Assembly: GCA_019119235.1 (NCBI GenBank)
Contig: DWXL01000015.1
Span: 1-40,215 of the forward strand
Origin: Candidatus Blautia excrementigallinarum
GTDB taxonomy: Bacteria; Bacillota; Clostridia; Lachnospirales; Lachnospiraceae
Length of the DNA: 40,215 bases
Direction of reading: 5' to 3'
Shown here piece by piece: positions 5,629 through 24,864 of the stretch. Position 1 is the first letter of the stretch. Every line of letters starts with the position of its first letter. The position numbers and the translations under genes were made by a program. The notes beneath the pieces are model-generated. The model had not been told where the DNA came from. It saw only the letters and a list, made by a program, of their open reading frames with translations, and searched no databases.

Positions 5629-5812
5629 AACAGAAATCCTGGAATGTGCGATACCCCTTCAGTTTTTGAACCTACATCGACATTAAGGGAATCCAATATC
5701 GCAGATGTAATGTCAGACCTCTCGTTGTGGTAGGCAGCGCATCCTGTTGAGGACACCCACCTGGCTGCGGCTAGGAGTCAAAAAGAAGGGAACGGCATTC
5801 CGGGACTTCCAG
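5629..5812 (+). ncRNA. ssrS: 6S RNA (RNA polymerase regulator)
   Basis: No gene fits here. The stretch is bounded by a promoter and a terminator and folds as a long rod. The closing stem pairs TCCTGGAATG (5637-5646) with CATTCCGGGA (5796-5805), allowing one G-U. Internal segments TTGAACCTACAT (left strand) and ACACCCACCTGGCTGCGG followed by CTAGGAGTCAAAA (right strand) are of the kind seen in clostridial 6S RNAs. Length (about 180 nt) is right. 6S RNA mimics an open promoter and binds sigma-A RNA polymerase in stationary phase. The call is from recalled consensus and the fold; a covariance-model search would settle it. Confidence 0.85.
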
Positions 5813-9303: not shown

Positions 9304-9564
9304 AGACGAAAAGCTGAGAAGGCGTATCAGGGTTCTGTTTTCTTACAGAGAGAAGAAGTCACCGGCTGCAAGCTTCTTTAAGTTCAGACAGTTCCTTAGT
9401 TTCCCGCCGGAGCTTCATTTCTGAACCGTGACCGGACTTCCGGTTCCAAGTAGGAGATGACGTGGCTGCGCGTTAAGCAGAGACAGAGCGCTCATGTATA
9501 TCTGTACATGGGAAACTGGGTGGTACCGCGGATAATCCGTCCCTCTATGAGGGGCGGTTTTTTT
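9304..9564 (+). promoter_or_regulatory. T-box leader (phenylalanine-tRNA responsive)
   Basis: The T-box signature GGGTGGTACCGCGG lies at 9518-9531 and is followed by a terminator: CCGTCCCT (9537-9544) with AGGGGCGG (9550-9557) and seven T. The sequence TGGT in the T-box pairs with an ACCA tRNA end, which fits tRNA-Phe. The upstream ~200 bases include an AGAGAGAAG segment of the kind found in the stem I K-turn region. Uncharged tRNA-Phe should stabilise the antiterminator and allow pheST expression. The specifier codon could not be fixed by eye; several TTC triplets are present (for example about 9390 and 9413). Confidence 0.93.
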
Positions 9565-9572
9565 GATACCAA

Positions 9573-9723
9573 GGCTTCAAAAGTCGGAGATCCATCTGTG
9601 CTTTGCAGAGAAATGGATTGACGACCTTGGAAGCCGTACAAAAATGAGGAAGAAACGGGGGAGGGGCCCCGTGAATTCCGAATTTTTGTAGAATTGCGAG
9701 AGCACGGAGTGCGGAGCAATTCT
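9573..9723. repeat. Imperfect and perfect inverted repeats between T-box and pheS
   Basis: Two hairpins fill the 217-base gap. The first pairs 9573-9595 with 9613-9635 imperfectly (shared GGCTTC and ATCCAT ends). The second is a perfect 8-bp arm AGAATTGC (9690-9697) with GCAATTCT (9716-9723) around a GC-rich loop. This resembles intergenic repeat units rather than T-box parts, since the T-box terminator is already complete at 9564. No reading frame of interest was seen. Confidence 0.5.
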
Positions 9724-9781
9724 CAGGTGTCAAAGTTGACGATTAAAATTCTAAGCGTATATCAAAAAGGAGAAATGAACC

Positions 9782-10827: not shown

Positions 10828-13245
10828 ATGAATACATCAATGTCCTGGATCAAAATGTATGTGCCGGATCTGGATGTGACAGCTCAGGAATACACAGACG
10901 CCATGACGCTTTCCGGAACGAAGGTGGAAGGGTATGAAAAGCTGGACGCAGATCTGGATAAAATTGTCATCGGACAGATCATGAAGATAGAGAGACATCC
11001 CGACGCGGACAAACTGATCGTCTGCCAGGTGGATATCGGAACAGAGACTGTACAGATCGTAACAGGAGCCCCCAATGTAAAAGAGGGAGACAAGGTTCCG
11101 GTTGTTCTGGACGGCGGCCGTGTAGCGGGAAGCCACGACGGCAAGAAAACTCCCGGAGGAGTTCTGATCAAGAAAGGACAGCTCCGCGGCGTGGAATCCT
11201 GCGGTATGATGTGCTCCATCGAAGAGCTTGGAAGCACCAGAGAAATGTATCCGGAAGCTCCGGAATACGGTATTTATATTTTCCCGGAGGACGCTGAAGT
11301 TGGACAGAGCGCTGTCAAAGCGCTCGGCCTGGACGACGTTGTCTTTGAGTATGAGATCACATCCAACCGTGTGGACTGCTACGGCGTGATCGGAATCGCC
11401 AGAGAGGCGGCAGCCACTTTCGGCAAAAAATTCTGTCCTCCTGTTGTGAAGACAACAGGAAACGGAGAGGACGCTTCCGACTATATCAAAGTTACGGTAA
11501 AAGATCCGGATCTCTGCCCCAGATATACGGCCAGAGTGGTAAAAAATGTCAAGATCGGACCGTCTCCCAAATGGATGCAGAGATGCCTTGCCGCAAACGG
11601 CATTCGTCCCATCAACAACCTTGTTGATATCACCAACTATGTGATGGAAGAGTACGGACAGCCCATGCACGCTTACGACCTGGATACTATTGAGGGACGG
11701 GAGATCATTGTGCGCCGGGCAGAAGCCGGAGAGAAATTTGTCACCCTGGACGGACAGGAGAGGACAATGGATGAAAACGTCCTGATGATCTGCGACGGCA
11801 AAAAAGCGGTAGGCATCGGCGGTATCATGGGCGGTGAAAACTCCATGATTACCGACCAGGTAAAGACCGTGCTTTTTGAGGCGGCCTGCTTCAACGGAAC
11901 CAATATCCGCCTTTCTTCCAAGAGGATCGGACTTAGGACAGACGCTTCCGGCAAATTTGAAAAAGGCCTGGATCCCAATAACGCCGAAGCGGCCATCAAC
12001 CGCGCGTGCCAGCTGATGGAAGAACTTGGCGCCGGCGAAGTGGTCGGCGGCATGGTTGACGTATGCAGCGAGACAAGAGAGCCTTCGAGAGTTCCCTTTG
12101 AGCCGGAGCGAATCAACGCCATCCTGGGAACTGATCTGACAGTGGATGAGATGCTGGGATACCTGGCGCGGGTAGAGCTTGCCTACGATGAGAAGACAAA
12201 CGAGATCGTAGCGCCCACTTTCCGCCAGGATATCCACTGCACCGCGGACGTTGCCGAGGAAGTGGCCAGGTTCTACGGATACGACAAAATCCCCACTACC
12301 CTTCCCAACGGTGAGGCTACCACAGGCAAACTTCCGTTCAAACTGAGAATCGAGCAGGTGGCAAGGGACATCGCGGAATACTGCGGATTTTCCGAGGGAA
12401 TGACCTACTCTTTCGAAAGCCCCAAGGTGTTTGACAAACTTCGGATCCCGGCGGACAGCGACCTGAGAAAGGTGATCACCATCAGCAATCCGCTGGGCGA
12501 GGATTACAGCATCATGCGTACCACAACTCTGAACGGAATGCTGACTTCTCTTGCGACCAACTATAACAGAAGAAACAAAAATGTCCGTCTCTACGAGATC
12601 GGCAAAGTATATCTTCCCAAGTCCCTGCCGCTTACAGAACTTCCCGACGAGAGAGTGCATTTCACGCTTGGAATGTACGGCGACGGAGACTTCTTCGACA
12701 TGAAGGGCGTCTGCGAGGAATTCTTTGAAAAAGCAGGCATGAAGAAAAAAGTTCACTACACGCCCGACAGCGGAAAACCCTGGCTTCATCCCGGCAGACA
12801 GGCCAACATTATCTATGAGGGAAGCGTAGTGGGTTATTTGGGAGAGGTACATCCCCTGGTTGCCGATGCTTACGGAATCGGCGAAAAGACATATATCGCG
12901 GTGATCGATATCCTGGATATCCTGAAATACGCCGGATTTGAGCACAAGTATACCGGAATCGCGAAATATCCGGCAGTGACCAGAGACCTCAGTATGGTCG
13001 TACCGAAATCCGTCCTTGCGGGCGATATCGAAAAGATGCTGGAACAGAGAGGCGGAAAAATTCTGGAATCCTATCAGCTTTTCGACGTATACGAGGGATC
13101 TCAGATCAAAGAGGGATATAAGTCCATGGCATACTCCATCGTATTCCGCGATCATGAGAGAACTCTTGGGGAAGCGGATATTACCGCGGTGATGAAGAAG
13201 ATCCTCAACGGGCTTACCTCTCTGGGAATCGAGCTGAGAAGCTGA
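10828..13245 (+). CDS. pheT: Phenylalanyl-tRNA synthetase beta subunit
   Basis: An 805-residue subunit of full length. Domains in order: N-terminal B1 with the EMAP-like tRNA-binding fold (about 40-150, VIGQIMKIERHPDADKL), B3/B4 editing domain (about 210-390, including NLVDITNYVMEEYGQPMHAYD and GIMGGENSMI), B5 (about 405-475), catalytic-like core and the C-terminal FDX-ACB anticodon-binding domain (about 710-805, YPAVTRDLSMVVP). Start ATG 10828 follows GAAAGGTGG. The TGA stop overlaps the next ATG by one base (TGATG), which suggests translational coupling with the downstream phosphatase. Confidence 0.98.
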   Translation: MNTSMSWIKMYVPDLDVTAQEYTDAMTLSGTKVEGYEKLDADLDKIVIGQIMKIERHPDADKLIVCQVDIGTETVQIVTGAPNVKEGDKVPVVLDGGRVAGSHDGKKTPGGVLIKKGQLRGVESCGMMCSIEELGSTREMYPEAPEYGIYIFPEDAEVGQSAVKALGLDDVVFEYEITSNRVDCYGVIGIAREAAATFGKKFCPPVVKTTGNGEDASDYIKVTVKDPDLCPRYTARVVKNVKIGPSPKWMQRCLAANGIRPINNLVDITNYVMEEYGQPMHAYDLDTIEGREIIVRRAEAGEKFVTLDGQERTMDENVLMICDGKKAVGIGGIMGGENSMITDQVKTVLFEAACFNGTNIRLSSKRIGLRTDASGKFEKGLDPNNAEAAINRACQLMEELGAGEVVGGMVDVCSETREPSRVPFEPERINAILGTDLTVDEMLGYLARVELAYDEKTNEIVAPTFRQDIHCTADVAEEVARFYGYDKIPTTLPNGEATTGKLPFKLRIEQVARDIAEYCGFSEGMTYSFESPKVFDKLRIPADSDLRKVITISNPLGEDYSIMRTTTLNGMLTSLATNYNRRNKNVRLYEIGKVYLPKSLPLTELPDERVHFTLGMYGDGDFFDMKGVCEEFFEKAGMKKKVHYTPDSGKPWLHPGRQANIIYEGSVVGYLGEVHPLVADAYGIGEKTYIAVIDILDILKYAGFEHKYTGIAKYPAVTRDLSMVVPKSVLAGDIEKMLEQRGGKILESYQLFDVYEGSQIKEGYKSMAYSIVFRDHERTLGEADITAVMKKILNGLTSLGIELRS

Positions 13246-13859
13246 TGAAGATTTATATAGTAAGACATGGGATAACCGTCTGGAACGAACTGAAAAAAGT
13301 GCAGGGCTGCGCGGATATTCATCTTGCGCCGCAGGGCCGGAGCCTGGCGGAAAAAACAGGCGAGGCACTGAGGGACGTGTCTTTTGATATCTGCTTTACC
13401 AGTCCTCTTCACCGGGCGTGCGAGACGGCCGCCCTTATACTTGGGGAAAGAGCAGGACGGATACCGGTGATTCCTGACGAACGGATCCGGGAGATCAATT
13501 TTGGCGTTCTTGAGGGGAAGGTTTTTAAGGATCGGGAGGGAAATATCCTGAATGAAGATCTGAAGACTTTTTTTAAGGATCCCTGGAATTATAAAAGACC
13601 GGAAGGCGGAGAAAATATTGAAGATATCGTCCGCCGCACCGGAGAGTTCTGGAAGGAAAAGACCAGTGATCCGAACCTTCAGGATAAAACGGTTCTCATC
13701 ACATCCCACGGCTGCGCGGTACGCGCCCTGCTTCAGAATGTGTACAAAGATAAGGAGGATTTCTGGCACGGAGGCCCGCCGCCAAACTGCGGAGTCAACG
13801 TAGTGGAAGTGGCAGACGGAAAGACAGTCCTTCTGGAAAAAGACAGGGTTTATGCCTGA
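13245..13859 (+). CDS. Histidine phosphatase family protein (GpmB/CobC-like)
   Basis: A 204-residue cytosolic phosphatase. The catalytic RHG motif is at the N-terminus (IYIVRHGITVWNE, nucleophile His8), an acid-base glutamate is expected near INFGVLEGKVF (about 85-95), and the second histidine lies in LITSHGCAVRALL (about 150). Its overlap with pheT by one base makes it the third gene of the T-box operon, although no link to tRNA charging is known. Members act on phosphosugars, phosphoglycerate, alpha-ribazole phosphate or other esters, so the substrate is open. An inverted repeat follows at 13904-13951. Confidence 0.88.
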   Translation: MKIYIVRHGITVWNELKKVQGCADIHLAPQGRSLAEKTGEALRDVSFDICFTSPLHRACETAALILGERAGRIPVIPDERIREINFGVLEGKVFKDREGNILNEDLKTFFKDPWNYKRPEGGENIEDIVRRTGEFWKEKTSDPNLQDKTVLITSHGCAVRALLQNVYKDKEDFWHGGPPPNCGVNVVEVADGKTVLLEKDRVYA

Positions 13860-13903
13860 ACGCATCTTTGGCCTGAGAAATATAAAATAATAATCGACAA
13901 AGC

Positions 13904-13951
13904 TAGCGTCAGTATACAAGGACCGTATTGGCCCCTTGTATACTGACGCTA
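13904..13951. repeat. Perfect 18-bp inverted repeat downstream of the phosphatase gene
   Basis: TAGCGTCAGTATACAAGG (13904-13921) is mirrored exactly at 13934-13951 around a 12-base loop. There is no T-run on either side, so it is not a standard terminator by itself. Confidence 0.75.
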
Positions 13952-13978
13952 ACCCGACATGAATGCAGGTCGGAGGAG

Positions 13979-13996
13979 TCCGGAAGACTTTCCGGA
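13979..13996 (+). terminator. Short stem-loop, possible terminator of the pheST operon
   Basis: TCCGGAA (13979-13985) pairs with TTCCGGA (13990-13996) around a GACT loop; an outer GGAG/CTCC may extend it. The following sequence (TTTCTCC) is only weakly T-rich, so termination is uncertain. Confidence 0.4.
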
Positions 13997-14056
13997 TTTC
14001 TCCGGCCTTTCTCTTATGTAGGAAAAAGAGAGGGAAGGTAAAGTGGAAAAGACAGC

Positions 14057-14085
14057 TTGTCGCTCTGAAAATGTTATGATATTAT
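14057..14085 (+). promoter_or_regulatory. Promoter of the ZorAB-like pair
   Basis: TTGTCG (14057-14062) and TATTAT (14080-14085) with 17-base spacing, about 40 bases upstream of the ATG at 14125. The pair is therefore likely expressed independently of pheST. Confidence 0.65.
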
Positions 14086-14124
14086 GGTAAAAAAGCAAGA
14101 ATATTGCATCTAAGGAGGATGATT

Positions 14125-15756
14125 ATGGGAAAAAAGATAGCAAATACCCTGCTGTTTCTGGCAGTTCTTGCCGCGGCGGTGGGAATGACGTTATATGTGG
14201 GCCAGGGAGTCGTCAGCGTTCTTGTCTATAATTTCATTTTCCTGGCAGTTATGGTTGTGATTTATTTTATCTGCCTTTTCGGAGGGATGTACCGGATGAA
14301 TAATCTGGCCGAATCTCTGAGGAACGCAGGCCAGGAACTGGTGGGACTGTTTCAGAAGCCAGGCAAGGCGGAAACTGAGAAGGTCGTAAGCCTGAAAGGT
14401 ATTTTCCATCACGGATATCTGGACAGGAAGATGAACGACTTTACAGACGGTATCAACAAGAGCGAGGAAGGCCTGGGCGATATTGAAGAATATTTCAATG
14501 AAGAGGATCTGGATAATCATATACATAAGCGTCTTCTTGAGATGGCACCGGATATTTTTACCAGCCTTGGTATCCTTGGAACATTCGTGGGACTTGTGTG
14601 GGGCCTTAAGAACTTTGAACCCTCCAATTATGAGGCGATGACAACTTCTGTTTCCGCTCTTGTAGACGGTATCAAGGTTGCGTTCCTAACGTCCATTTAC
14701 GGAATTTCTTTTTCTATTATATACAGCTACGGTATGAAGAGTGAGTACTCCTCCATGACCGAGGGACTGCAGGATTTTCTTGGCAAGTTCCATGCTTATG
14801 TGATGCCTACGGCAGAGACAGAATCCATGAATATCATGGTTTCCACACAGAAAAACCAGACGGCGGTCATGACTCAGATGGCAGAGGATTTTTCTGTGAA
14901 ACTGGCGGATAACTTTGAGAAGGTGATCACGCCCACTTTCCAGAAGATGAACGACTCTCTTGACGTACTTGTTTCTTCTGTGACACGCTGTCAGGAGGAT
15001 GCGGTAAAAGAGATCGCAGACGCTTTCCTGAAGCAGATGAACGCTTCTTTTAAAACGCAGTTTGATGAATTCGGCAGGACGCTTGCGCAGCTGAAAGACG
15101 CGCAGACAGATAATGTGAACTATACTACGAATCTTTATCAGGCCATGAGCCGTCAGCTTACAGAGTCCTATATGCATCATGAGACGGAGATGAAGAAGAT
15201 CCTGGAGGAAACAGGAAAGACTCAGAAGGAATATCTGGATACGGCGAACCGTATTGTCCGTGACAATCAGACCATACAGAAGCAGCAGCAGGCGGATTAC
15301 CATCATCTTGCGGATTATCTCAAGGAGGCGGAGACTTCATCCGCCAAATTCTGGGTGGCCTGCAATCAGACCATGCAGAAATATGTGGAGGCTGCCGCTC
15401 AGGGAATGGACCGTGTGTCCGCCGCCGGCAGGGCAGGAAGCGATCTGCTTGAATCCAACAGACGTGCTGTCGAGGCTTTTGACGCCAGACTGCAGGAATT
15501 TACTGAATACCAGAAGAAATCAGCCCGTACCATGGATCAGGTTCGCAGGCTTCTTATGGATATTACCGCCGCCCGTGAAGGCGGAGAGATCCGTCTCAGC
15601 GCCGGAAGGAATACCCAGAAGGAAACCCTGGATAAGATCCGCGAGATCCTGGAGGCGCAGAGCGAACAGCAGAAGGAATTCCTGGAGGAAATGTCCAGAA
15701 ACATCAAAGATCTTACGAAAGCTTCCGGAAAGGGAAAATTCGGTTTGTTCAGATAA
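14125..15756 (+). CDS. MotA/TolQ/ExbB-type channel protein with long coiled tail (ZorA-like)
   Basis: A 543-residue membrane protein. AGGAGG lies six bases before ATG 14125, so the upstream in-frame TTG is rejected. Four transmembrane segments are visible: about 5-26, 30-53, 143-162 and 178-202. The last two, with MAPDIFTSLGILGTFVGLVW and VAFLTSIYGISFSII, match the MotA/TolQ/ExbB core. A cytoplasmic insertion (54-140) and a long helical tail (about 215-543, Gln/Glu/Lys-rich) follow. ZorA of Zorya defence systems has this plan: stator core plus long intracellular tail. The partner gene starts 12 bases downstream and encodes a MotB-like protein. No ZorC, ZorD or ZorE and no flagellar genes are nearby, so this may be an orphan ion-driven motor with another output. 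Not a canonical MotA, which is about half this size. Confidence 0.8.
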   Translation: MGKKIANTLLFLAVLAAAVGMTLYVGQGVVSVLVYNFIFLAVMVVIYFICLFGGMYRMNNLAESLRNAGQELVGLFQKPGKAETEKVVSLKGIFHHGYLDRKMNDFTDGINKSEEGLGDIEEYFNEEDLDNHIHKRLLEMAPDIFTSLGILGTFVGLVWGLKNFEPSNYEAMTTSVSALVDGIKVAFLTSIYGISFSIIYSYGMKSEYSSMTEGLQDFLGKFHAYVMPTAETESMNIMVSTQKNQTAVMTQMAEDFSVKLADNFEKVITPTFQKMNDSLDVLVSSVTRCQEDAVKEIADAFLKQMNASFKTQFDEFGRTLAQLKDAQTDNVNYTTNLYQAMSRQLTESYMHHETEMKKILEETGKTQKEYLDTANRIVRDNQTIQKQQQADYHHLADYLKEAETSSAKFWVACNQTMQKYVEAAAQGMDRVSAAGRAGSDLLESNRRAVEAFDARLQEFTEYQKKSARTMDQVRRLLMDITAAREGGEIRLSAGRNTQKETLDKIREILEAQSEQQKEFLEEMSRNIKDLTKASGKGKFGLFR

Positions 15757-15768
15757 AAGGAGAGACAG

Positions 15769-16758
15769 ATGCGCAGAAGAAAAAAATCAGATGACCAGGG
15801 CTTTAATGTCTGGAGGTCCTATTCGGATATGATGGCCGGCGTTCTGCTTCTGTTCGTGCTCATTATGTGTGTGACACTGTTTCAGGCTCAGAAGAGTTAT
15901 GACGAAAGTGTGAAAGAACGTGACGAGAAAATCGCCATGCAGGAGCAGTATACCCTTGAGATCCTTGCCCAGCAGAATGAACTGGACGAGAAGGAAGGCG
16001 AACTTCAGAGCCAGACCGAGCAGATCCAGTCCCAGGACGAGAAACTGAAAGATCAGGAGCAGCTGCTGGCAGCGCTGGCGGCCCAGCTTCAGGATCAGGA
16101 AAAAACGCTGAAAGAGCAGGCGGCCACGCTGAGCGCCCAGCAGACGGATCTTGATGAGAAAACAGCGCTCCTGGCAGATCAGCAGGCCCAGATCGATCAG
16201 ATCGTGGGAGTGAAGGCGGAAGTAATAGAGGCTCTGAGGAACGAGTTCGCGGCCAGTAATGTGAATGTGGATATTGATTCCCAGACCGGAGCCCTCACAC
16301 TGGACGCCAACGTTATGTTCGATTACGACCAGTATGAGCTCACGGATGAAGGAAAAGCTGTTCTCGAACAGATCCTGCCTATATACTGTCAGGTGCTCCT
16401 TCAGGGAGATTATACCCAGTATCTTGCCGAGATCATTATAGACGGATATACAGATACCGACGGAGATTACAGTTATAACCTGTATCTTTCCCAGATGAGA
16501 TCCCTTGCCGTGGCCCAGTATCTTCTGGATATCCAGGGGAACTTCCTCAGCGCGGAGCAGAGCCAGGAGCTTCAGGATTATCTCACCGTGAACGGACATT
16601 CCATGGCCAATCCTATCCTGGACGCCCAGGGCAACGTTGATAAGGACGCTTCCAGGCGAGTGGAAGTGAAGTTCCGCCTTAAAGACGACGAGATGATCCA
16701 GGAACTGAACCAGATCATGAGCGGCGATGAGGCTGCCGCCGCTGCAGGAGAAAATTAA
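15769..16758 (+). CDS. MotB/OmpA-like peptidoglycan-binding protein (ZorB-like)
   Basis: A 329-residue single-pass membrane protein. A basic N-terminus is followed by the plug/TM segment YSDMMAGVLLLFVLIM; Asp20 just at the membrane entry corresponds to the proton- or ion-carrying aspartate of MotB, ExbD and ZorB. Residues 45-145 form a Gln/Glu/Lys-rich periplasmic coiled coil with near-heptad repetition. The OmpA-like peptidoglycan-binding domain spans about 170-305, with VMFDYDQYELTDEGK and GYTDTDGDYSYNLYLSQMRS. The acidic/alanine tail has no recognised motif. ATG follows AGGAGA. It forms a two-gene unit with the preceding channel gene; the promoter of rplS begins 10 bases after its stop. 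Confidence 0.82.
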   Translation: MRRRKKSDDQGFNVWRSYSDMMAGVLLLFVLIMCVTLFQAQKSYDESVKERDEKIAMQEQYTLEILAQQNELDEKEGELQSQTEQIQSQDEKLKDQEQLLAALAAQLQDQEKTLKEQAATLSAQQTDLDEKTALLADQQAQIDQIVGVKAEVIEALRNEFAASNVNVDIDSQTGALTLDANVMFDYDQYELTDEGKAVLEQILPIYCQVLLQGDYTQYLAEIIIDGYTDTDGDYSYNLYLSQMRSLAVAQYLLDIQGNFLSAEQSQELQDYLTVNGHSMANPILDAQGNVDKDASRRVEVKFRLKDDEMIQELNQIMSGDEAAAAAGEN

Positions 16759-16767
16759 AAAAACACC

Positions 16768-16796
16768 TTGCAATCCCTGATCTTCTATAGTATAAT
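16768..16796 (+). promoter_or_regulatory. Promoter of rplS
   Basis: TTGCAA (16768-16773), 17 bases, then perfect TATAAT (16791-16796). Transcription should start near 16803. Confidence 0.85.
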
Positions 16797-22196: not shown

Positions 22197-23579
22197 TTGA
22201 AAGAAAAAAGACATGTGATCTCCAGGGTCCTTCCGGGAAGTATTGCCGAGGAGCTTGAACTGGAACCGGGAGATATTCTGGCAGCGATCAACGGCCAGCC
22301 GGTGGAGGACGTATTCGATTACCGGTATCTTATGAACGATGAATATGTGACGCTTCTGGTGGAGAAGGCAGACGGAGAACTCTGGGAACTGGAAGTGGAG
22401 AAGGAGTTTGAGGAGGATCTGGGCGCGGAGTTTGAGAACGGGCTGATGGACGACTACCGTTCCTGCAGCAACCGCTGTATTTTTTGTTTCATTGACCAGA
22501 TGCCTCCCGGAATGCGGGAAACATTATATTTTAAAGACGACGATTCCCGGCTGTCTTTTCTTCAGGGGAATTATGTGACTCTGACCAATATGAGCAGGAA
22601 AGATATCGATCGTGTGATCCGGTACCGCCTGGAACCCATAAATATCTCTTTCCAGGCCATGAATCCGGAACTGCGGTGCAGGATGCTGCATAACCGTTTT
22701 GCGGGCGAGGCGCTTGAGAAGGTGGATCTTCTTTATGAAGCCGGTATTTCCATGAACGGCCAGATCGTCCTATGTAAAGGAATTAACGATGGCAGCGAAC
22801 TGGAGTACAGTCTTGAGAAGCTTTCCGCTTACGCTCCGGTTCTTCAGAGCGTTTCCGTGGTCCCGGTGGGGCTTACGAAATTTCGCGAAGGTCTTTTTCC
22901 CCTTGAACCATTTACGGAAGAAGATGCGGAGAAAGTGCTTGAACAGATACACCGCTGGCAGAAGGCCATGTATGAGAAACACGGGATCCATTTTGTCCAT
23001 GCTTCGGATGAATGGTATATTCTCGCCGGACAGGAGCTTCCGGAGGAAGAGCGCTATGACGGTTATATCCAGCTGGAGAACGGCGTGGGAATGCTGCGGC
23101 TTCTGGGTACGGAAGTGAAGGCCGCTCTTGAAGAGCGCGCCGGCGACGACAGGAAGCTGAGGATTTCTGCGGCTACCGGAAAACTTGCCGCGCCATACCT
23201 CAGACAATGTATGGACGCGATACATGAGAAATTCCCTCGTGTTAATGTAGAAGTACATGAGATCTCGAACCGTTTTTTCGGCGAAAGGATTACGGTGTCC
23301 GGTCTGATCACGGGACAGGACCTGAAAGAACAGCTGACGGGACAGGACCTGGGAGAGCGGCTTCTGATCCCCTGCAATATGCTCCGCAGCGGAGAGGATG
23401 TTTTTCTTGACGACATGACAGTGGAAGAGCTTTCCGAAGCCCTGAACACCGAGATCGTAGTGGCAGATGAAGATGGAGCGGATCTGGTATCTTCCGTACT
23501 GGATCCCCCTGACCATAAAAAACAGATAAGGAGACAGATGTATGAGCAAACCAGTAGTAGCGATCGTGGGAAGGCCTAA
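22197..23579 (+). CDS. PDZ/DUF512 radical-SAM-like protein
   Basis: A 460-residue protein if read from TTG 22197, chosen because AGAGGGA lies six bases upstream, because the family N-terminus ([20 protein letters not shown]) follows directly, and because upstream starts fall in the promoter. Order: PDZ-like domain (1-75), cysteine motif [14 protein letters not shown] (CX3CX2C, about residues 91-98) of radical SAM type, a TIM-barrel-like middle and the DUF512 C-terminal domain (about 235-440). The biochemical role of the family is unknown. It occurs next to der in many Firmicutes. Its last 38 bases overlap the start of der in another frame, so the C-terminus after LDPPDHKK may be poorly conserved. 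Confidence 0.88.
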
Positions 23580-24864
23580 TGTGGGCAAATCCACGTTGTT
23601 CAATGTGCTTGCCGGAGAGATGATCTCCATTGTCAAGGACACGCCCGGTGTGACCCGGGACCGGATCTACGCGGATGTGACCTGGCTGGATCATTCCTTT
23701 ACCCTCATTGATACAGGCGGAATCGAGCCTGACAGCAGCGATATCATTTTATCCCAGATGAGGGAGCAGGCCCAGATCGCCATAGATACGGCGGATGTGA
23801 TTATTTTTATCACCGACGTCCGCCAGGGCCTTGTGGACGCCGACGCCAAGGTGGCGGATATGCTTCGCCGCAGCCAGAAGCCGGTGCTTCTTGTAGTTAA
23901 TAAGGTAGACAGCCTTCAGAAATATATGATGGATGTTTACGAGTTCTATAATCTGGGCATCGGAGAGCCGATTGCCATTTCCGCGGCCAACCGCACAGGG
24001 ATCGGAGATCTTCTTGACGAGGTTGTGAAGGAGTTCCCCGAAGGCGCGGGAGAAGATGAGGACGACGACATTCCCCGGATCGCCGTGGTGGGTAAACCCA
24101 ACGTGGGCAAATCCTCGCTGATTAACAGGCTTCTGGGACAGGACCGTGTGATCGTATCGGATATTGCCGGAACCACCAGGGACGCGGTGGATACGAAAGT
24201 CAAATGGCAGGGAAAAGAATATATTTTCATTGATACCGCCGGACTTCGCCGCAAGGGAAAAGTGAAAGAAGAAATTGAGAGATACAGTGTGATCCGCACA
24301 GTCACTGCGGTGGAGCGGGCTCACGTGGTGGTTATGCTGATCGACGCCGTGGAGGGCGTGACGGAACAGGACGCCAAGATCGCCGGGATCGCCCATGAGA
24401 AGGGCAAGGGCGTGATCATTGCCGTCAACAAGTGGGACGCGGTGGAGAAGGACGATAAGACGATCTATAAATTTACCAACAGGATCCGCGAGGTGCTTTC
24501 GTACATGCCGTACGCGGAGATCGTCTTCATCTCGGCCAAAACGGGACAGAGGATCCCGCGCCTGTTCGAGACCATCGATATGGTGATCGAGAACCAGACG
24601 CTGCGGATCCAGACGGGAGTGCTTAACGAGATCCTTTCCGAAGCGGTGGCGATGCAGCAGCCGCCCTCCGACAGGGGCAAGCGCCTGAAGATCTTCTATA
24701 TGACACAGATAGGAGTACGCCCGCCTACTTTTGTTATTTTTGTAAATGACAGGGAACTGATGCATTTTTCCTACACCAGATATATTGAAAACAAGATCAG
24801 GGAGGCTTTCGGCTTCCGCGGAACCTCTCTGAAATTCATTATCCGTCAGCGGGGAGAGAAGTGA
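23542..24864 (+). CDS. der: Ribosome assembly GTPase Der (EngA)
   Basis: A 440-residue essential GTPase with two tandem G domains and a C-terminal KH-like domain, acting in 50S maturation. First G domain: [12 protein letters not shown] (about 9-20), VTRDR, DTGGIEP, NKVD (about 119-122). Second: [12 protein letters not shown] (about 185-196), [19 protein letters not shown] and [10 protein letters not shown]. The KH-like domain occupies about 355-440 ([13 protein letters not shown]). AAGGAG lies in the end of the upstream gene. The TGA stop overlaps the GTG codon at 24861. Confidence 0.98.

Follow-up and report, generated by a model that had tools for sequence, protein, structure and literature searches.

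What might a Zorya-type motor do where no Zorya effector lies beside it? The question is raised by two adjacent genes in a 40,215-nucleotide stretch of a Blautia contig (this whole stretch is called the window below), which comes from an assembly that is 78% complete and shares 94% identity in ZorA with its nearest relative. Both open reading frames are intact:

14125–15756, + strand: zorA-like gene, 543 amino acids; MotA/TolQ/ExbB channel with a long cytoplasmic tail
15769–16758, + strand: zorB-like gene, 329 amino acids

A gap of 12 bp separates the two genes, and a good ribosome-binding site precedes each, with TAAGGAGG standing before the zorA ATG at 14125. A longer zorA reading from a TTG at 14104 was rejected, as the homologous start lies elsewhere (14125).

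The pair groups with ZorA and ZorB

The original prediction took the two genes for relatives of zorA and zorB, and both profile and structure searches bear this out. Pfam places MotA_ExbB in the ZorA-like protein (E=2e-7) and OmpA in the ZorB-like one (E=3e-12), both passing the cut-off, and the PADLOC profiles ZorA1 (E=5e-23), ZorA2 (E=1e-21) and ZorB1 (PDLC00609, E=6e-68) match as well. The NCBIfam Zorya models also match the pair, but score under their curated cut-offs (71.8 versus 100 bits for the ZorA_2 subfamily and 89 versus 400 bits for ZorB1). When the PDB is searched by sequence, the ZorA-like protein retrieves ZorA best (8vvn, 8qyy, 8qyk, 8qyd, 8vvi), the sole MotA appearing at E=0.23, and the ZorB-like protein retrieves ZorB (8qyd, 8vvi). 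Single-chain AlphaFold2 models, built from 31 homologues and submitted to Foldseek, agree for the A subunit, for which ZorA chains occupy ranks 1–6 ahead of ExbB and PomA; with the B model, ZorB chains occupy ranks 2–4 among OmpA-type domains, and MotS (9ljk) is also among the matches. Judged by this homology, in sequence and in predicted fold, the pair is almost certainly a ZorAB-type ion-driven motor. Plain ExbBD proteins are not its closest relatives: ZorA and ZorB are nearest, ahead of MotA and ExbB.

A conserved tail motif and a long linker

The anatomy initially read from the gene pair, that is a coiled ZorA tail of ~330 residues, an aspartate at position 20 of ZorB, a coiled coil and an OmpA domain, is present in the two reading frames:

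14530–14739, + strand: ZorA residues 136–205, TM3–TM4 channel core (SLGILGTFVGLVWGL...GIKVAFLTSIYG), Thr/Ser lining nearly invariant
15331–15396, + strand: clade-specific ZorA tail motif, residues 403–424 (E403..SSAKFWVACNQTMQKY..A424, also written E..SSAKFWVACNQTMQKYVEAA)
15826–15828, + strand: codon for Asp20 of ZorB (SYSDMMAG), the ion-path residue that all 31 homologues share
15892–16254, + strand: ZorB extracytoplasmic coiled coil, residues about 42–162, part of one predicted helix (15–162) that includes the transmembrane segment
16255–16686, + strand: predicted OmpA-like peptidoglycan-binding domain of ZorB, residues about 163–306, with TD228-229, R244 and R296-R297 kept

In the channel, T153, T189 and S190 of ZorA are invariant across 31 sequences. 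Beyond this transmembrane core, which is modelled well, the tail extends for about 330–341 amino acids and is predicted to be helical, at low pLDDT. The tail segment from E403 to A424 reads KFWVACNQTMQKY and is almost invariant: an 11-residue run of it holds 10 invariant residues, when 20,000 random placements gave a maximum of 7, and it stays nearly invariant across species whose ZorA identity falls to about 40%. Since the motif is kept even in other genera, where the pair sits at unrelated sites, it probably docks an unlinked partner.

The ZorB model (AlphaFold2, pLDDT 78) consists of the helix 15–162 followed by an OmpA fold, and by alignment this domain keeps the ligand residues of predicted peptidoglycan binding. 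From the ion-path aspartate to the OmpA domain, the linker measures 143–234 residues in the Blautia-type clade versus 63–83 in effector-linked Zorya, roughly a doubling. As clostridial Zorya falls within this shorter range, the linker length is not merely a consequence of the Gram-positive wall.

A two-gene unit at a fixed site in Blautia

The neighbours originally named, pheST and rplS, hold in general, with the correction that a histidine-phosphatase (gpm-like) gene at 13245–13859 intervenes between pheT and the pair. Around the two genes we find the following signals:

13967–14008, + strand: hairpin of 19 pairs resembling an intrinsic terminator, downstream of the gpm-like gene and ahead of zorA
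14057–14085, + strand: zorA promoter sequence TTGTCG-17-TATTAT, with an extended -10 (TG..TATTAT) and a -35-like CTTGT box
16768–16796, + strand: promoter-like site for rplS, TTGCAA-17-TATAAT, downstream of zorB

The promoter elements CTTGT / TATGATATTAT are conserved upstream of most Blautia homologues, in agreement with the proposal that the pair has its own promoter, and as rplS is equipped with a promoter-like site as well, zorAB forms a two-gene unit at the window locus. The window also contains, between gpm and zorA (13902–13955), a near-perfect inverted repeat of about 18–20 bp (GCTAGCGTCAGTATACAAGG / CCTTGTATACTGACGCTAAC), which is absent from the closest relative and from the other loci compared. 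Elsewhere in the window, three Rfam families score over their gathering thresholds: 6S RNA (5633–5810), a T-box leader upstream of pheS (9307–9547) and Clostridiales-1 RNA (9564–9732).

How widely is this arrangement shared? Of 64 Blautia genomes, 58 carry the pair (59 with a genome whose sole copy is the EAL-type paralogue described below), as do 32 of the 34 near-complete ones, and wherever zorA and pheT lie on one contig (41/41 Blautia genomes) zorA is found in the same orientation as pheT and 32–1649 bp downstream of it. In three Blautia genomes without the pair, pheT and gpm are followed by a queA-like gene, and zorA is missing from the site; that two near-complete genomes lack the pair indicates that it is not essential to the genus. 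Distance matrices of ZorAB and PheST correlate (Mantel r=0.87, a value reached in 0 of 2000 permutations), and the two trees have 10 of 14 splits in common, with two supported conflicts. Within Blautia, then, the fixed site after pheT and the agreement with the PheST tree uphold the original suggestion of vertical inheritance, and on these sequence comparisons the pair is vertically inherited. It is also under strong purifying selection, dN/dS against the closest relative being 0.05 in zorA and 0.016 in zorB, and against others about 0.05–0.1, with the zorA tail nearly as constrained as the core. Plasmid and phage collections yielded no close relatives, the matches being to distant Zorya genes and to a single phage contig without annotation.

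Beyond the genus, distribution is patchy. The pair had been imagined as core to the Lachnospiraceae, which is not supported, given that 16 of 299 genomes match; likewise, the position between pheT and rplS is kept across Blautia, but other Lachnospiraceae genera carry the pair at other sites, for instance after hisF, before gyrB or beside wall-protein genes.

Search for Zorya effectors

We here define Zorya by the linkage of its motor to ZorC and ZorD (type I), ZorE (type II) or ZorF and ZorG (type III). As first noted, neither ZorC, ZorD or ZorE nor flagellar genes are near the pair among the window neighbours tested, all of which are housekeeping or acetogenesis genes. Genome-wide searches covered ZorC, ZorD and ZorE. 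The ZorC domain was found in 0 of 64 Blautia genomes, in a search whose positive control also matched nowhere; a clostridial ZorE query gave two marginal matches in the same 64 genomes (E~3e-4); and a clostridial ZorD query matched the shared helicase core alone, in 34 Blautia genomes, and nothing in the 78% complete source genome. Many near-complete Blautia genomes carry ZorAB without a ZorD-like match. The same kind of query does find effectors elsewhere, namely ZorD beside two type I-like pairs and ZorE beside a type II pair, all clostridial. With no linked effectors found and NCBIfam scores under the cut-offs, the pair is not Zorya by definition. A lost effector between zorB and rplS of relatives was considered and rejected, the inserts there being unrelated ordinary genes, among them, judged by eye, a ZIP-like transporter, a SEC-C aminopeptidase-like gene and MATE and EamA transporters.

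Could the pair still be a defence motor, its tail motif calling in a nuclease from another locus once the wall is disturbed by phage? In its favour, the pair is built like ZorAB, effector recruitment has been proposed for Zorya tails (PMC11890865), a conserved tail motif implies that a partner exists, and PADLOC matches ZorB strongly. We nevertheless consider this reading unlikely, for defence genes are mobile and patchy, in contrast to the fixed site, vertical inheritance, near-universal presence in Blautia and strong purifying selection seen here; known Zorya pairs adjoin their effectors, Clostridia included; and in Blautia the effector searches found neither ZorC nor, save for the marginal matches, ZorE, and in the source genome nothing like ZorD. 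Nor are there defence genes nearby: PADLOC matches on 23542–24864 fall on a GTPase that, from its size and neighbours, looks like Der/EngA rather than a defence gene.

Relation to Zorya and to other ion-driven motors

In our tree, a supported clade unites the Blautia-type pairs inside a broader Lachnospiraceae group, and effector-linked Zorya lies outside it on long branches, the tree having no settled root. The idea, raised at the outset, that a conserved ancestral motor of this type was the source from which Zorya defence motors were drawn appears very improbable to us. It could draw on one Blautia locus inside the Lachnospiraceae clade of the window pair (L066), where ZorA and ZorB are linked to a HerA ATPase, suggesting that the clade can be combined with nucleic-acid ATPases; this combination was seen once, however, related HerA loci inspected are without ZorAB, the clade is patchy in Lachnospiraceae, and the long branches and root of the tree speak against it as well. 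L066 itself is a single run of genes that, besides ZorA and ZorB, encodes an ATPase of the HerA/FtsK type, a VWA membrane protein and some uncharacterised proteins. HerA as a regular ZorAB partner was rejected after two relatives similar over their full length had been inspected and, like two further ones, proved to be without ZorAB.

Even less credible is that an ordinary ExbBD/TolQR biopolymer-transport or flagellar stator pair has been misread as ZorAB. MotA_ExbB and OmpA are general domains, TolQR and ExbBD belong to the same channel superfamily, and MotAB and MotPS share with the Blautia pair the ion-path aspartate and an OmpA-type domain fold. But the top matches in sequence and in fold are ZorA and ZorB, and the MotA sequence barely matches; the A tail has 341 residues versus 51 in ExbB and 35 in MotA; TolR and ExbD (as seen in the E. 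coli proteins compared) have no OmpA domain, unlike the B subunit here; and the FliG_C profile, whose control matched in four genomes, is absent from the 78% complete source genome. Finally, a former Zorya that lost its effectors and now decays, as their absence next to the pair might suggest, is a reading already refuted by the selection evidence in Blautia (dN/dS about 0.02–0.1, reading frames intact throughout) and at odds with the long linker, an architecture that differs from Zorya.

What is shared with types I and II of Zorya (8qyd, 8vvn, 8vvi) is the motor: the channel core, the entry aspartate, the OmpA domain and the long helical tail. What differs is the presence of linked effectors (ZorC and ZorD or ZorE), of which the Blautia pair has none adjacent and none detected in the source genome, along with the longer linker, the clade-specific tail motif and the fixed genus-wide locus.

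Other clostridial orphan pairs resemble the Blautia pair in having the motor core without Zorya effectors, but have different tails or linked genes. In a second ZorA-like family, observed in five Blautia genomes and one other Lachnospiraceae genome, the C terminus is fused to an EAL domain (Pfam E=6e-51, 4e-55) that keeps EALVRW and has DDFGTG replaced by DGFDG, DGFKG or DGFSG, and so is probably a non-hydrolysing c-di-GMP sensor. In the B subunit of this family the Asp motif is retained, yet SpaA-type domains and a second transmembrane segment take the place of the OmpA domain; the loci are of polysaccharide type, beside a Wzz/BcsQ-like ATPase. From its sequences, the family resembles a surface-polysaccharide motor gated by c-di-GMP, and it may be more novel than the Blautia pair itself. 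A further, separate chromosomal ZorAB-like family spans ten loci in several clostridial families (L114, L117–L125) and has an FWPSFTDVMST motif and an OmpA domain, and no Zorya effectors adjoin it; L114, L118 and L122–L124 have a neighbouring gene for a TPR-like protein, the TPR group being a separate branch of the tree. Two loci (L107, L108) encode an A-like protein and a B-like partner that has an OmpA domain but not the ion-path aspartate; apparent type IV pilus genes (pilB, pilT and pilC) follow directly downstream. On the Prevotella plasmid pE2-28, ZorA2/ZorB2/ZorE-like genes have a 3'-5' exonuclease gene and two genes with the annotation DNA translocase FtsK on their flanks.

Wall-protein neighbours in sister lineages

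Next to which genes do relatives of the pair reside? In two other genera, genes for a choline-binding NlpC/P60 hydrolase and a secreted transglutaminase-fn3 protein lie just upstream of zorAB, with 39–77 bp from the transglutaminase gene to zorA; both are homologous between the two genera, at 33–37% identity. In three Robinsoniella-type species, a gene for a choline-binding CAP protein follows zorB after 20–45 bp. Five Blautia species encode, 5–17 bp after zorB, a short protein with one transmembrane helix, a coil and a conserved domain of ~100 amino acids (LRYLKMPYY...GEMVV), which is missing in the window. This protein matched no known domain in Pfam or PDB searches; the idea of a degenerate M15 peptidase was dropped, with no support from either database, and an M15_4 protein sought in the source genome for comparison was not found there. 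Possibly, the short protein is a third subunit of the motor.

Together, the wall proteins in sister lineages and the membrane/coil protein after zorB suggest that the output or input of the motor concerns wall or surface proteins. None of these genes adjoins the window pair, and in Blautia itself it is pheT, gpm and rplS, rather than wall-protein genes, that border it; its proposed envelope role is thus deduced from relatives, and of the options first entertained for the motor, it is wall or envelope work that these neighbours (NlpC/P60, transglutaminase, CAP) favour.

A probable wall-anchored motor outside defence

What, then, is the likely function of this pair? Our preferred reading is that of a ZorAB-type motor that probably serves a housekeeping, envelope-related job instead of defence. 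Zorya and MotAB work as 5:2 assemblies in which ion flow turns A around wall-bound B and the tail relays the signal (PMC11890865). By the same scheme, five A subunits would encircle two B subunits, whose long coil would bridge the gap beneath the thick Gram-positive wall, with anchorage in peptidoglycan. Either ion flow past Asp20 would rotate the A ring, tail included, against a B dimer fixed in the wall, or wall strain would gate ion flow. The tail motif would dock a conserved, unlinked, putative cytoplasmic partner, so that the state of the wall would be turned into cytoplasmic action, or force, at the docking site, for use in envelope upkeep.

Blautia has no outer membrane. More tentatively, and with rather less confidence than in an envelope-related job as such, the pair could be a monoderm counterpart of Tol-Pal: a rotary, ion-driven machine whose long coiled coil would cross the zone beneath the Gram-positive wall, which would sense peptidoglycan or act on it, and whose conserved tail motif would hand the signal or force on to a cytoplasmic partner; Zorya would then be one defence-specialised branch of a wider clostridial class of wall-anchored motors. 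TolQR and ExbBD, whose TolQ and ExbB subunits have no long tail and of which ExbB ranks below ZorA by fold, may have an analogous role in coupling ion flow to the envelope. A search of the open-licence literature found no publication on a ZorAB-like pair in Blautia, which is weak evidence of novelty.

ZorAB motors are familiar from anti-phage defence. One that is vertically inherited and effector-less in a common gut genus sets motor and defence effectors apart, and allows the sensing half to be tested by itself. There are consequences for annotation as well: the relaxed '_other' classes of PADLOC require just two co-localised genes (PMC8565338), and Zorya calls from the motor pair alone can mislabel such housekeeping loci as defence. 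Among clostridia, the EAL-tailed, TPR-linked and HerA-linked families suggest a diverse, little-described class of wall-anchored motors.
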